DNA of 64,000 bases from an uncultured Spirochaetales bacterium. GTDB taxonomy: Bacteria > Spirochaetota > Spirochaetia > Sphaerochaetales > Sphaerochaetaceae. The DNA lies in assembly GCA_949283305.1 (NCBI GenBank), contig CASDRU010000010.1, positions 124,001 through 188,000 of the forward strand, written 5' to 3'. This document shows, one piece after another, positions 20,814 to 30,080 of the stretch (position 1 is its first letter; every line of letters starts with the position of its first letter). The position numbers and the translations under genes are program-made. Below the pieces are notes generated by a model. That model worked only from the letters and a program-made list of their open reading frames with translations. It searched no databases and was not told the origin of the DNA.

Positions 20814-21466
20814 AAGTTCTTATAACAGGTGCCCTTTCTAATCTGGGGCTTGAGATAGCAAGAGTGTTCTATGAACACGGTTTTGAGGTTTACGGAACGA
20901 GCAGAAAAGAAAGGGCTTTTGAATACGGAAAAATTCTTCCTCTTGATTTCTCATGCCCTGATTACTCTGTTCTTGATGAGATTGAAGAGTGTGATGTTCT
21001 TGTAAACAATGCCGGGATATTCACCGAGGGAAAGACTGGAAGCCTAAGTGCAGAAGATTTTGATTCTGTGATAGATGTCAACATAAAGGGACTGTATCAT
21101 GTTACTGAAAGGATGCTTCCTCTTTTGAAGAAAAGCAATGGCTCGATTGTGAATATATCGAGCATGAATGCAATGCATCCCGGATTCGGACTTACCAGTC
21201 ATTATGACGGCTCAAAAGGATTTGTGTCCTCTTTCACCAAAAGCCTTGCTTCAGAGACCGGCCTCCGTGTCAATGCTGTATGCCCGGGACTCATAAGAGC
21301 ACCCCGTCTTGAGGGCACGGAGCTTGAGAAGGTTTTCTCTTCCCACTCGGTCAGAAAGAAGATGATGGAAGCTGAAGAGATTGCGGAACTTGTATATTTT
21401 CTTGCTGTAAGCCAGGGTATTTACGGTCAGAGCATTATAATAGATAATGGTTATAGCCTTTTATGA
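20810..21466 (+). CDS. Short-chain dehydrogenase/reductase
   Basis: A 218-residue SDR. The nucleotide-binding TGALSNLG at residues 6-13 departs slightly from TGxxxGxG, but NNAG near residue 65, NISSMNAMHP with the catalytic serine, YDGSK (Tyr-x3-Lys) and VCPGLI are intact. Substrate unknown. ATGA overlaps on both sides show tight coupling with the cupin and phosphoesterase genes. Confidence 0.88.
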   Translation: MKVLITGALSNLGLEIARVFYEHGFEVYGTSRKERAFEYGKILPLDFSCPDYSVLDEIEECDVLVNNAGIFTEGKTGSLSAEDFDSVIDVNIKGLYHVTERMLPLLKKSNGSIVNISSMNAMHPGFGLTSHYDGSKGFVSSFTKSLASETGLRVNAVCPGLIRAPRLEGTELEKVFSSHSVRKKMMEAEEIAELVYFLAVSQGIYGQSIIIDNGYSLL

Positions 21467-22137
21467 GCAAAATCAAGATTCTGTGCATCTCTGATGCAAC
21501 CGATGCCCTTATTTATTCCACAAATGCACCGGTCAGATATGCAGATGTCGACTTCGTCATCTCCGCAGGTGATCTGCCGCTGAGGTATTATGACTATATC
21601 CAGACAATTTTAAAGAAGGATGTCTATTACGTTTATGGCAATCATAATCTTGAGGGCTTCAGGGCTCAGATGAAGGGAAGGACCACAGTCGGCAATACGT
21701 TTACTTATCAGAGTCCTGTAACGTATGACGGGTTCTTTCTGGATGGAAAGATTGTTTATCTGAAAAAATATGATCTTCTCATCGGTGGACTGGGAGGATC
21801 GATGCATTATAACGGCGGGGACAGCCAGTACACTGAAAGCCAGATGAGAGCCCGTATGATCAGAATGGTTCCTCGCCTGATTTACAACAAGATGAGATAC
21901 GGCCGCTATCTCGATATCCTCATAACGCATGCTCCGCCCTATAAAATCGGGGATGGAGAGGATCTTTGTCATAAGGGATTCTCGTCTTTTCTGCGTTTCA
22001 TGGAAAAAGTCAGACCCAGCTATCTTCTGCACGGTCATGTGCACCTAATAGACATGAACGACAAAAGGGAAACGAAATATGAGGATACGACGGTAATCAA
22101 TGTATATAAGAACTATATTCTGGAAATAGAAAGGTGA
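21463..22137 (+). CDS. Metallophosphoesterase
   Basis: A 224-residue calcineurin-like phosphoesterase. SAGDLPLRYYDY, YGNHNLEGF, ITHAPPYKIGD and LHGHVHLID supply the metal-binding motifs in order. The first motif, usually D-x-H, reads ISDATDAL, so one ligand may be missing or supplied differently. Substrate unknown. It sits between the SDR gene (4-base overlap) and the ParB-fold gene. Confidence 0.88.
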   Translation: MSKIKILCISDATDALIYSTNAPVRYADVDFVISAGDLPLRYYDYIQTILKKDVYYVYGNHNLEGFRAQMKGRTTVGNTFTYQSPVTYDGFFLDGKIVYLKKYDLLIGGLGGSMHYNGGDSQYTESQMRARMIRMVPRLIYNKMRYGRYLDILITHAPPYKIGDGEDLCHKGFSSFLRFMEKVRPSYLLHGHVHLIDMNDKRETKYEDTTVINVYKNYILEIER

Positions 22138-22141
22138 GCAT

Positions 22142-23032
22142 ATGGATATTGCACAGGAAGATTTTTCAAGAGCAAAGAAGAAGGCAAAACTTCAGAGTCT
22201 GTTTTATGCAATTACCAGGAAAAACCCTGATCTGCTCTCATTTTATGAGGTTACAAGCATAATAAAGCCCAAAAGTGAGACATACAAGGGAATGCAGACC
22301 ATTCCTGTTGAGAAAATAATCGGGAGCGAAGGCCGCTATCATGATTTCTCAGCAGCGTTCTATCCCAAGCGCGAGATGCTTAGAAACAGGTGGGAGAGTG
22401 TGGACAGGGCAAGACTGAGCGATGTGATCCTTCCTCCCATTTCTGTTTTCTCAATCGGGGGATATTATTTTGTCAGAGACGGCAATCACCGTGTCAGCGT
22501 CGCAAAAGCGCAGGGTGTTGAGTTTATTGATGCAGAGGTTGTGGAGCTGGACTCCCAGATAGAGCTTGAGGAAGGGCTGACGATGAAGGCCTTGAAGAAG
22601 CGCCTGGTTGCATATGAGCGGGATGAGTTCATAAAGCAGTACAAGCCGACATTCCTTCCAATGAGCGAGATATACTTCACAAGCCCCGGAGCTTATCCAG
22701 AGATGGTAAGCCATATCCTTGTGCATAAATATTACATAAACCAGAATAAGAGCAAGGAAATCTCATTTGAGCAGGCGGCTGTTTCATGGTACAAGAATGT
22801 CTATAAGGTCATCGTTGACGAGATTACAGAGCACCATATCCTTGCGCTCTTTCCGGGGCATACGAAAGGAGATATGTATCTGTGGCTTGTAAGGCTCTGG
22901 GATGATCTGAAAAGAAACAGGAAGGACAACTCCGTGTCAGTTGATGAGGCTGCCCACATAATGAGGAAGAGGGCCAGACACGGAGTGGTCAGACGATATA
23001 TCTCGTATTTCTTCTCAAGATTCTTTAAGTAG
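22142..23032 (+). CDS. ParB/sulfiredoxin-fold protein
   Basis: A 296-residue protein. Residues 85-135 contain ILPPISVFSIGGYYFVRDGNHRVSVAKAQG, the ParB-type nucleotide-binding core with the DGNHR motif. The rest is helical with many basic residues and no evident DNA-binding helix-turn-helix, so this is not a chromosome-partition ParB. Related proteins occur next to unrelated genes in spirochaetes; function is unknown. It is the last gene of the nine-gene nucleoside run, and its 3' end overlaps the convergent flavodoxin gene by 18 bases. Confidence 0.7.
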   Translation: MDIAQEDFSRAKKKAKLQSLFYAITRKNPDLLSFYEVTSIIKPKSETYKGMQTIPVEKIIGSEGRYHDFSAAFYPKREMLRNRWESVDRARLSDVILPPISVFSIGGYYFVRDGNHRVSVAKAQGVEFIDAEVVELDSQIELEEGLTMKALKKRLVAYERDEFIKQYKPTFLPMSEIYFTSPGAYPEMVSHILVHKYYINQNKSKEISFEQAAVSWYKNVYKVIVDEITEHHILALFPGHTKGDMYLWLVRLWDDLKRNRKDNSVSVDEAAHIMRKRARHGVVRRYISYFFSRFFK

Positions 23033-23569
23033 GCTTGCTGCAGTGGAGGCAAAGCGTTTTGCCACCTCCTCAAGCTCCTGGCCCGGGCGGCTTGGCATCA
23101 TCAGGCCATCTTTATGGGTATACTGAGGAAAATCCACGGCATAAAGGCCCATCATGGCAGCCCAGCTGTCTGTTGCTTCTATTGCATCCAGAGCGTCTTT
23201 ATGGCTGTATGTGCTTGTGGCAAAGGAATAATAGAGCTTTCCTTCAAGTTCCCTGCTCTCAAAGAGATCCGCAGTATTGTCAAGGAAGGTCTTGAATTCT
23301 GCACTCGGCATTCCAAAACGTGAAGGGAGGCCGAACATAATGAGGTCTGCGCTTCTCAGCTTCTCGTTGTTTGCAACCGGCAGTTCTTCAATTTCCTCGT
23401 AGTATTCATTTACATCGTTCCTGTCTGCGGCAAGCACATGCAGATCGCTGTCAAGAATCCTGTAAAGTCTTGTATCCACACCTTCAAGAGCAAGCGCTTC
23501 TTTGAAGGATCTTGCTATAAGATAAATGTTCCCTCCAATTGAGTGGAATATGATATTGCATCTCATCAT
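23015..23569 (-). CDS. Flavodoxin/WrbA-like NAD(P)H:quinone oxidoreductase
   Basis: A 184-residue flavodoxin-fold protein. The N-terminal FMN phosphate loop is HSIGGNIYLIA, followed by DLIMFGLPSRFGMPSAEFKTF (residues about 75-95) and a YSFATSTYSH segment over the flavin, as in WrbA. A role in two-electron quinone reduction is inferred from the family. AAGGAG precedes two adjacent ATG codons, of which 23569 is the first. Confidence 0.82.
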   Translation of the reverse strand: MMRCNIIFHSIGGNIYLIARSFKEALALEGVDTRLYRILDSDLHVLAADRNDVNEYYEEIEELPVANNEKLRSADLIMFGLPSRFGMPSAEFKTFLDNTADLFESRELEGKLYYSFATSTYSHKDALDAIEATDSWAAMMGLYAVDFPQYTHKDGLMMPSRPGQELEEVAKRFASTAASLLKES

Positions 23570-26292: not shown

Positions 26293-26354
26293 TTTTTTGC
26301 TTTAAACGCTGTTTCTTTGATTGATATCTGAAAAAAAGTGTGTAAAAATTAGCT

Positions 26355-26441
26355 TACCAAGGCGTACTGATTGTCTTTGCATACGTCTGGTGCCCCGAAA
26401 GGGATAAGGAGGTTGCCGCTGCAAGTTCAGCGGTTTTTTTT
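26355..26441 (+). ncRNA. Candidate structured small RNA with own promoter and terminator
   Basis: TTGATA (26321-26326), 16 bases and TAAAAA (26343-26348) predict a start near 26355. Three hairpins follow. The first pairs 26356-26366 with 26382-26391 (ACCA-AGGCGTA with TACGTCT-GGT, one bulge, 15-base loop). The second is CCC-GAAA-GGG (26394-26403), a GNRA tetraloop. The third is CCGCTG (26416-26421) with CAGCGG (26428-26433) followed by eight T. Between the last two lies an exposed AAGGAGG. There is no SRP, 6S or tRNA signature and I recognise no riboswitch class. It may be a free RNA or an attenuated leader for the lipoprotein gene at 26480. Confidence 0.55.
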
Positions 26442-26479
26442 GTAACCTTTGCCTTTTTTTGTTGTTTCTAGATTTGCAT

Positions 26480-27136
26480 ATGAGAAAACTTCTTTTTCCT
26501 CTTGTTATTTCATTACTTCTTTTTTCATGCACTTCTACAGGTGATTTTGTCCCGCCTCACTCAGCCCTTGATGTCAAGATAGAAGAGAGCATCAGCGTTG
26601 AGGAAGAAAAAGAAGAAGTTTCAGCTCCTGTATTTTCAGGCGAGGTGGAGATAGCCGCTGAGACTGAAGAAGAGACTGCTGAGACAGAAGAGGAGAAAGA
26701 AGAATCTGCTATAGCAGAACAAGTGGAAGAAATTTCTGTTAACGATGACAGTGCCAAAGAAGAAGTGCCATCTGAGGAAGCTCCAGAGAGCGTCAAAGAA
26801 GAAGATGTGGCAGAAAGTCCTTCTGTCGCTGAGGCTGAGGAAGCAGATATAACAGGCAATGATGTTTCTCAAATCGGGCTTGACAGCAAAGCTGATGAGA
26901 TAATGCTCACATCTTTCATAATGGCAGCAGTCATGGTGCTTATCGTATCTCTTTCCACGATAATCAGGAGCAACAGCACAAGAAGAATGCCTGTGCTAAT
27001 TTCCATAGTCCTTGCATTGCTTTTTACAGCAATACCGATGATAGCATCAGTCATAATAAGCGGATGGAATAACCTTTATTATGCTTATCTTGTCCTCTTG
27101 CTCACATTCTTCATAATCAGGGGAAAGAAGAACTAG
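26480..27136 (+). CDS. Acidic lipoprotein with C-terminal membrane segments
   Basis: A 218-residue protein of unknown function. Residues 1-17 are a lipoprotein signal ending LLFSC. Residues 30-130 are highly acidic and low in complexity, mostly Glu, Ser, Val and Ala. The C-terminal 80 residues form three hydrophobic segments (starting SFIMAAVMVLIVSLST, then VLISIVLALLFTAIPMI, then YYAYLVLLLTFFII) and end in RGKKN. A lipid anchor plus membrane spans is unusual. An earlier TTG at 26459 is less likely because homology to signal peptides begins at 26480. It follows the candidate small RNA and overlaps the ROK gene by four bases tail to tail. Confidence 0.7.
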   Translation: MRKLLFPLVISLLLFSCTSTGDFVPPHSALDVKIEESISVEEEKEEVSAPVFSGEVEIAAETEEETAETEEEKEESAIAEQVEEISVNDDSAKEEVPSEEAPESVKEEDVAESPSVAEAEEADITGNDVSQIGLDSKADEIMLTSFIMAAVMVLIVSLSTIIRSNSTRRMPVLISIVLALLFTAIPMIASVIISGWNNLYYAYLVLLLTFFIIRGKKN

Positions 27137-28205: not shown

Positions 28206-30080
28206 ATGTCACAGAAAAAATTCAAGACAGAAGTTGCGGATTTGCTTAAGCTCATAATCCATTCATTATACTCAAACAAGGAGATTTTTCTCAGGGAGCT
28301 TATATCTAACTCTTCTGATGCTATAGACAAGCTCAAATACCTTTCACTTACAGACGGCTCTCTCAAAGGCTATTCTTTTGACCCGAGAATCCAGCTTTCA
28401 TTTGATGAGGAGAAGAAGACTCTGACAATAAGCGATAACGGTATTGGAATGAATGAGGATGACCTTAACAACAACCTTGGAACGATTGCTTCCAGCGGAA
28501 CAAGGAAATTCCTTGAAAGCCTGAGCGATGAGCAGAAAAAAGACAGTAATCTGATAGGCCAGTTCGGAGTAGGTTTCTATTCTGCTTTCATGGTTGCAGA
28601 GAAAATAGAGGTCGTTACAAGAAAAGCCGGAGAAGAAGAGGCATATAAGTGGACAAGTGACGGAAGAAGCGGTTATGAGATTGAAAAGGCAGAGAGAAGC
28701 GAGCAGGGAAGCACCATAACACTTTTCATGAACAGTGATTCAACAAGTTTCCTTAACCGCTATGAGCTTGAACGCCTCATAAAGAAATATTCAGATTATG
28801 TTGCTTATCCGATTTATCTTGAATATGAGAAAACAAATTACAATTACGAGAAAAAGGATGAAAAGGGTGAGCCGGAAAAGACAGTTGAGCACAAGAATGA
28901 GCAGATAAACTCAGCAATAGCTCTCTGGAGAAAGAGCAAGAGCTCGATCAAGGAAGAGGAATACAAGGATTTTTACAAGAACAACTGGTATGACTCAGAA
29001 GATCCTCTTTTCTATATGCACAGCAAGGTTGAGGGGGCAACTGAGTACACAACACTTTTCTATATTCCTCAGCATGCTCCGTTTGATATGAACTATGCGG
29101 ATTACAAGCCGGGCGTGAAGCTTTATGTCAAGAGAGTATACATTACAGATGATGACAAGGAGCTTCTTCCTGTCTACCTGCGCTTTGTCAGAGGCATAAT
29201 CGACAGTGAGGACCTGCCGCTCAATGTATCCAGGGAGATCCTTCAGGAAAACAGGATCATGGCAAGCATCAGAAGCTCATCTGTCAAAAAGATTCTTGGA
29301 GAGTTCAAGAAGATTAGTGAGAACAATCCTGAGCTTTATGATAAGTTCATCAAAGAGTACAACCGCCCGCTGAAGGAAGGACTTTACTCGGATTATGCAA
29401 ACAGGGATGCCCTGTTGGCCCTTGTGCGGTATCATTCAAGCTCAGAGGACGGATATGTCTCTCTTCAGAAGTACAAAGAGAGGATGAAGGAAGGCCAGAA
29501 GAGCATATATTATATCTCTGGAGGAAGCCTTGATACCCTTAAATCCTCACCGCTCATTTCCTCATATACGGAAAAGGGATACGAGGTTCTCATCATGGAT
29601 GATGATATTGATGAGATTGTGCTTACTTCCCTTTATGAATATGAAGGTCTGCCTTTCAAGGCAATCAATAAGACAGGTGCTCTTGATGAGATAAAGGATG
29701 AGAATGATGACAAGCTCAAGGAAGAGAAGAAGGCCGTTGCCGAGAAGGTGAAGAAGGCTCTTGGAGACAAAGTCAAGGATGTTGTCATCTCAAGCCGCCT
29801 TGATTCCTCAGTCTCATCCTGCATCCTCATGGATGAGAATGATCCTTCAGTACAGATGCAGCGTCTCATGAAGCAGATGGGAAATGAAGGAATTGAAGTC
29901 AAGCCTATTCTTGAGATAAACCCGAAGAGCCCTGTTATAAACAAGGTTGAGGCAAGCGAGGATGAGGAGTACGTGAAAGCAGTTTCAGAGGTGCTTCTTG
30001 ATCAGGCGCTCCTTCAGGAAGGCGTCATGATAAAAGATGCTCTTGCTTTTGCAAAGAATCTTACTAGACTGCTTGGCTGA
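28206..30080 (+). CDS. htpG: Hsp90-family molecular chaperone HtpG
   Basis: ATP-dependent cytosolic chaperone that works as a dimer on late folding intermediates. The 624-residue protein has the N-terminal GHKL ATPase: SLYSNKEIFLRELISNSSDAIDKL (residues about 18-41, with the catalytic Glu and the Asn), ISDNGIGM and GQFGVGFYSAFMV. The middle domain has LPLNVSREILQ with the conserved arginine. The C-terminal dimerisation region ends without an MEEVD tail, as in bacteria. A terminator follows directly. Confidence 0.97.
   Translation: MSQKKFKTEVADLLKLIIHSLYSNKEIFLRELISNSSDAIDKLKYLSLTDGSLKGYSFDPRIQLSFDEEKKTLTISDNGIGMNEDDLNNNLGTIASSGTRKFLESLSDEQKKDSNLIGQFGVGFYSAFMVAEKIEVVTRKAGEEEAYKWTSDGRSGYEIEKAERSEQGSTITLFMNSDSTSFLNRYELERLIKKYSDYVAYPIYLEYEKTNYNYEKKDEKGEPEKTVEHKNEQINSAIALWRKSKSSIKEEEYKDFYKNNWYDSEDPLFYMHSKVEGATEYTTLFYIPQHAPFDMNYADYKPGVKLYVKRVYITDDDKELLPVYLRFVRGIIDSEDLPLNVSREILQENRIMASIRSSSVKKILGEFKKISENNPELYDKFIKEYNRPLKEGLYSDYANRDALLALVRYHSSSEDGYVSLQKYKERMKEGQKSIYYISGGSLDTLKSSPLISSYTEKGYEVLIMDDDIDEIVLTSLYEYEGLPFKAINKTGALDEIKDENDDKLKEEKKAVAEKVKKALGDKVKDVVISSRLDSSVSSCILMDENDPSVQMQRLMKQMGNEGIEVKPILEINPKSPVINKVEASEDEEYVKAVSEVLLDQALLQEGVMIKDALAFAKNLTRLLG

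Follow-up and report, generated by a model that had tools for sequence, protein, structure and literature searches.

The Staphylococcus aureus small RNA SprF1 binds ribosomes via a purine-rich stretch, competes with mRNA loading and attenuates initiation (PMC8938821). The BbsR14-type small RNAs in Bartonella have anti-Shine-Dalgarno loops (PMC7717549). CsrB, RsmZ and McaS present GGA unpaired between hairpins, usually at several sites. The locus described here, from a member of the genus Candidatus Ornithospirochaeta, resembles all of these in part. SprF1 is the nearest reported mechanism, as both are small RNAs with an exposed purine-rich stretch, for which a ribosome contact is reported in SprF1 and proposed here. 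However, SprF1 acts as a type I antitoxin and carries the stretch at its 5' end, whereas the stretch at our locus precedes the terminator and no toxin gene partner is seen; the likeness is one of proposed mechanism. As in BbsR14, the RNA is short and structured and has a notable motif from the Shine-Dalgarno/anti-Shine-Dalgarno pair, although with the opposite polarity: BbsR14 has UUCCUCCUAA, while the spirochaete RNA has AAGGAGGUU. The small SRP RNA (RF00169) is similar in length, about 90-100 nt, and the copy studied here shares a GNRA loop with it, but the locus encodes three hairpins rather than a single long hairpin. An SRP identity was rejected on the grounds of the different fold, the lack of an Rfam match and the presence of the SRP RNA of this genome elsewhere in contig C10.

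The locus lies within the window, by which we mean the whole 64 kb stretch of DNA analysed, and comprises the following features:

26321..26326, forward strand: -35 promoter element TTGATA, read from the sequence
26344..26349, forward strand: -10 promoter element AAAAAT, placed by comparison with relatives, spacer of 17
26355..26441, forward strand: predicted small RNA transcript of about 87 nt, with the start inferred from the -10 element
26355..26392, forward strand: bulged hairpin P1 with single-base bulges A26360 and C26367, from compensatory changes
26370..26379, forward strand: apical loop of P1, 10 nt, AUUGUCUUUG, from alignments
26394..26403, forward strand: hairpin P2, CCC-GAAA-GGG with a GNRA loop, from folding and from pairs kept in relatives
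26404..26414, forward strand: single-stranded linker AUAAGGAGGUU, nearly invariant across the family
26406..26412, forward strand: Shine-Dalgarno-like AAGGAGG, not followed by a start codon at 4-9 nt
26415..26441, forward strand: intrinsic terminator GCCGCUG-CAAGUU-CAGCGGU, from sequence, folding and compensatory changes in relatives
26441..26446, forward strand: TGTAAC, probable -35 element of a distinct promoter serving the lipoprotein gene, from comparison of congeners by eye
26480..27136, forward strand: downstream lipoprotein gene, separately transcribed, listed for context only

A sequence-only reading of this DNA had proposed a candidate small RNA with a promoter, a bulged hairpin, a GNRA hairpin, an AAGGAGG motif and a terminator with eight T, and every one of these elements is present. 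It had also placed the RNA between phosphohexomutase and lipoprotein genes, which agrees with our assignments: one neighbour belongs to the PGM/PMM family, and the other has a signal and a lipobox by eye, with no match in Pfam. The terminator hairpin spans positions 26415-26434, and the eight T in all occupy positions 26434-26441. At the place equivalent to the -35 element, the relatives contain TTTGCA or TTTACA, with a promoter spacing of 16-18. The -10 element could alternatively be read as TAAAAA (26343-26348, spacer 16). However, AAAAAT at 26344-26349 with its 17-base spacer appears to be the best placement, the corresponding hexamer being AAGAAT in the sister genome and GATAAT, GACAAT or AATAAT in other congeners. 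The -10 element is located 53-81 nt ahead of the core in nearly all members scored.

No family in Rfam 15, including 6S, SRP, tmRNA and riboswitches, matched the window at the gathering score, nothing meaningful was obtained around the locus at E<=10, and the homologs in other genera and families were likewise without a match. This accords with the earlier statement that the RNA is not an SRP RNA, 6S RNA, tRNA or known riboswitch. Among open-licence PMC papers we found none on this RNA and no transcriptome paper for the group. The RNA is thus undescribed in the sources searched and absent from Rfam.

Folding of the single sequence was unremarkable (z = -1.49), with 14 of 200 shuffles folding equally well, and the case for the RNA therefore rests on comparison. 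The low z is also what would be expected if promoter-like, hairpin and terminator sequences had been assembled by chance, an explanation that is refuted by the comparative data, namely covariation and class-wide recovery by independent models, and that we consider hardly credible. MAFFT and RNAalifold applied to the raw genus alignment missed P1 owing to misalignment, so that we turned to flank swapping and covariance alignment. When the P1 flanks were paired with their own partners, the mean energy was -12.5 kcal/mol, as compared to -6.0 kcal/mol when the partners were swapped between species; the segments were cut by hand, independently of the model-fitted alignment. In an alignment of 50 distinct family sequences, which leans to structure since it was fitted to the covariance model, standard pairs made up 90.1% of the pair cells versus 71.3% in shuffles. 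Cells changed on both sides numbered 207 versus 72 in shuffles, a level reached by none of 500 shuffles of these 50 sequences. In this alignment, helices 1-3 correspond to P1 and helix 4 to P2, the pairs of which are kept with double changes in relatives. The terminator stem is also compensated, for example as CCACTAG/CTAGTGG. The family pattern of the P1 loop is roughly AUNGNYCYWG with a closing U-A or C-G pair, while the P2 loops in the relatives are longer than and different from the GNRA loop of the window copy. The compensatory changes that the sequence-only reading had looked to in the stem at 26356-26391 were thus found, both by the flank swap and by the pair count, and the stems are kept in relatives.

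These comparisons indicate that the interval 26321-26441 is a complete, real small-RNA gene that is predicted to be non-coding, structured and conserved. As in stand-alone bacterial small RNAs, the structure is kept by compensatory changes and the RNA has a predicted promoter and a predicted terminator of its own. The kept position of the promoter and the co-varying terminator stem add to the compensatory changes in bearing out the candidate.

Within its own genome, the window locus is the only strong match. A DNA search of 100 relatives identified the core in about 20 congeners. Together with covariance model R1, which also recovers the window locus, it raises the number of sampled congeners with the RNA to at least 34 of 48, several of the remainder being outside the covariance-model search. 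The named matches include Candidatus Ornithospirochaeta avicola, which is a near-identical sister, as well as Ca. O. stercorigallinarum. At the level of the order, the 14-mer AAGGAGGTTGCCGC is present in 48 of 139 genomes, including a few coding or chance matches, as compared to six for the reversed control. Members were read by eye in eight genera of the family (g1, g3, g5, g12, g49, g50, g51 and g55), of which we tentatively take g3 to be Sphaerochaeta.

Two further covariance models were built from distant members only. Model R2, based solely on g3 and g51, two other genera of the family, matches the window copy (E = 0.003 for its genome), most core-bearing congeners and members of the families f3, f4 and f17. 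Model R3, based solely on these three other spirochaete families, has the linker AAAAGGGGGUURCCGC and the P1 loop UACCGGA. It finds copies in g3, g5 and g51, and the window copy is its best match within the 64 kb (E = 0.016). Pairs co-vary in both the R2 set and the outer-family R3 set. The linker AAGGAGGUU is nearly invariant, with AAAAGGGGGUU as its counterpart in the outer families, and across the family its conservation exceeds that of the loops and of most stems. The sequences thus suggest an RNA family of the class Spirochaetia, and probably an old regulator. Weak model matches in family f24 that were inspected resemble coding sequence or plain terminators and were not counted. Three exact-core matches outside the spirochaetes (L051, L057 and L059) lack such a context and were treated as chance, and the viral contigs searched contained no match.

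The gene neighbourhood is partly shared between families. In f17, the RNA adjoins homologs of the window genes at 21463-23569, which encode a metallophosphoesterase, a protein with a weak DUF4032 match and a flavodoxin-like protein, and in two f17 genomes it is located directly upstream of htpG, which in the window is found at 28206-30080. The synteny, with the RNA between the flavodoxin-like gene and htpG, thus reaches other families, which supports common descent and a putative ancestral place next to htpG. Later insertions vary. The lipoprotein gene follows the RNA in most core-bearing Ornithospirochaeta, while the next gene is a convergent regulator (MarR/ROK-like) in g3 and part of g12, and mutarotase-like, RpiB-like and other genes are located 3' of the RNA in further lineages. 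The breadth of conservation, the identification of AAGGAGGUU as the most conserved part and the synteny near htpG in other families go beyond the sequence-only reading.

The frequent position of the RNA immediately 5' of the lipoprotein gene and in the same orientation raises the question of whether it is a cis-acting leader, riboswitch-like or an attenuator, in which the hairpins would serve as the aptamer and the terminator as the switch. That the upstream genes vary while the lipoprotein gene stays downstream, and that htpG follows directly in the two f17 genomes, is in line with this. However, the next gene is convergent in g3 and g12 and differs elsewhere, so that no constant downstream gene in the same orientation is found, and L039 retains the RNA without the lipoprotein gene. 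Furthermore, a separate promoter-like sequence follows the terminator, with the TGTAAC hexamer kept in several congeners (by eye), and no conserved antiterminator pairing was seen. We consider a leader unlikely and rejected it, as the differing neighbours and the convergent next gene in several lineages point to a stand-alone RNA. In all, the comparison of genomes provides a predicted promoter and terminator of its own, conservation, and independence of the downstream gene; expression, ribosome binding and an effect on translation are what we infer. As a separate observation, the lipoprotein gene has a weak Shine-Dalgarno sequence (-2.9 kcal/mol), and promoter-like sequence is located very near its ATG (26441-26480), so that its mRNA may be leaderless.

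The most conserved part of the RNA resembles a Shine-Dalgarno sequence. The calculated duplex between AAGGAGG and the 16S rRNA tail is -12.3 kcal/mol, as compared to a median of -7.8 kcal/mol for 55 gene starts of the window. The tail ...GGATCACCTCCTTT comes from the three other genera of the family in which it was readable, that of this genus being absent from the assemblies searched. Despite differences in the linker, such as AAGGAGGUU and AAAAGGGGGUU, the calculated pairing remains at -11.4 to -15.8 kcal/mol, and the linker change from A to G leaves the same U of the tail engaged, now in a G-U pair. The strong motif would also suit a short leader-peptide mRNA translated from AAGGAGG. However, no ATG, GTG or TTG is located 4-9 nt past the motif in any of 66 members, and in the 13 members with a start codon at 10-12 nt, it is placed inside the terminator hairpin. 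For lack of a start codon at the proper spacing, a leader peptide was rejected as highly improbable. The modelled stretch is exposed, complementary to the 16S tail and without a start codon, as a SprF1-like mechanism would require.

The putative mechanism is that two co-varying hairpins and the terminator hairpin hold the unpaired purine stretch AAGGAGGUU open, which would then pair with the anti-Shine-Dalgarno tail of the 16S rRNA, ACCUCCUU. Without a start codon, the RNA would occupy 30S subunits with no start of translation and compete with mRNA, and initiation would be lowered or biased. P1 may serve as a second contact or as a stability element. By analogy with SprF1, we tentatively favour this ribosome contact, while giving it somewhat less than an even chance, and the idea raised in the sequence-only reading, mimicry of a ribosome contact by the bare AAGGAGG, is the one we find most plausible at present, although not proven. 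Purine-rich stretches pair well with the anti-Shine-Dalgarno sequence anyway, and 7.6% of shuffled linkers reach the same pairing energy. The mean unpaired probability of the motif was calculated as 0.91 without the U tail and 0.49 with it. Pairing with 16S accounts neither for the conserved UU nor for the 5' half of the terminator stem, and a 30S decoy that acts globally would need a very high abundance. A pseudoknot between the P1 loop and the linker (UUCUUG with CAAGGA) is tempting in single sequences but is not supported across 38 sequences: the register varies, and the pairing is -3.9 kcal/mol versus -3.1 kcal/mol with shuffled loops.

The main rival, close behind the 30S contact, is pairing with CCUCC-bearing RNAs. 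The RNA would then be a trans-acting base-pairing small RNA or a sponge, with AAGGAGGUU as a seed for mRNAs with CCUCC or for a small RNA with an anti-Shine-Dalgarno-like loop. We regard this as a serious possibility that has less than even odds in its favour. The anatomy is that of ordinary base-pairing small RNAs, with an exposed conserved seed before the terminator hairpin, and UUGCC is conserved past the eight bases within reach of 16S pairing, which points to a partner of greater length. The opposite, anti-Shine-Dalgarno-like loops exist, as in BbsR14 of Bartonella (PMC7717549). However, in a target search of four genomes restricted to exact 10-mers, the CAACCUCCUU sites did not recur at gene starts. 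With mRNA targets sought by exact CAACCTCCTT, no gene start recurred, and the sole gene found in two genomes is a match in the middle of the coding sequence. The excess of CAACCTCCTT over the reversed control may represent ordinary Shine-Dalgarno sequences on the other strand. Neither 16S pairing nor pairing with an mRNA or small RNA accounts for the conserved UUGCC and the conserved P1 loop.

CsrA and Hfq are common protein partners of such RNAs. Searches with Pfam models identified Hfq in none of the 48 congeners, although the positive controls were detected, which speaks against base pairing of the Hfq-dependent type. The linker ACAAGGAGGU resembles the CsrA site consensus, ACARGGAUGU, which could make it the site of a protein-binding decoy, for CsrA or another protein. 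However, CsrA was also identified in none of the 48 genomes, while the control search finds the genes of E. coli, B. subtilis and T. maritima. In contrast to the several sites usual in CsrB, RsmZ and McaS, there is a single linker here, and its counterpart in the outer families, AAAAGGGGGUU, lacks GGA. Despite the resemblance to the consensus, a CsrA sponge was thus rejected, and a protein decoy in general is doubtful. RNA regulation in the genus presumably uses other chaperones or none, and we count the failure to detect either protein in the 48 congeners in favour of a ribosome contact.

Extending the 30S contact to a physiological role is more speculative. The RNA might represent a start-codon-less Shine-Dalgarno mimic of the Spirochaetia, with exposed AAGGAGGUU loading 30S subunits and tuning initiation globally, which is possible but less likely than not. 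The ancestral place beside htpG is the reason for considering a link to protein-folding stress. The RNA is found in gut commensals and in many further spirochaetes, which belong to eight genera of this family and to three other families. In a genus without detectable Hfq or CsrA, the part of it with the strongest conservation is a Shine-Dalgarno sequence without anything to translate. To our knowledge, few small RNAs have been traced across a whole bacterial class, and few have been described in spirochaetes outside Borrelia and Leptospira. If 30S binding is true, the RNA would parallel the SprF1 mechanism in a chromosomal, vertically inherited form, and if RNA-RNA pairing is true, it would be a conserved model for pairing without the Hfq or CsrA chaperones. 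On either reading, the alignment and the covariance models make it directly testable.

Several variants of the RNA were observed. In the outer families f17, f3 and f4 (L219-L229), the P1 loop UACCGGA or UGCCGGA is strongly conserved and the linker is GCAAAAGGGGGUURCCGC, and this version could be studied as a separate RNA family. A subclade (L071, L074, L079, L080, L082 and L084-L088) is marked by an additional U in its linker, AAGGAGGUUUGCC, and by a broken U-tract, GGUGAUUUUUU (GGUAAUUUU in L074), and its RNA is located in other gene neighbourhoods, next to mutarotase-like and other genes. A second type within the genus (L044, L050, L054, L055 and L056) has a short P1, UUGCAG/CUGCAA, in which a purine loop, GAAAGGA or GAAGGGA, replaces the conserved pyrimidine-bearing loop. 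Finally, the MAG CO.O77.metabat-bins.102 contains two copies of the RNA (L035 and L058), each with its own lipoprotein gene, and is probably a mixed bin rather than a case of true duplication.
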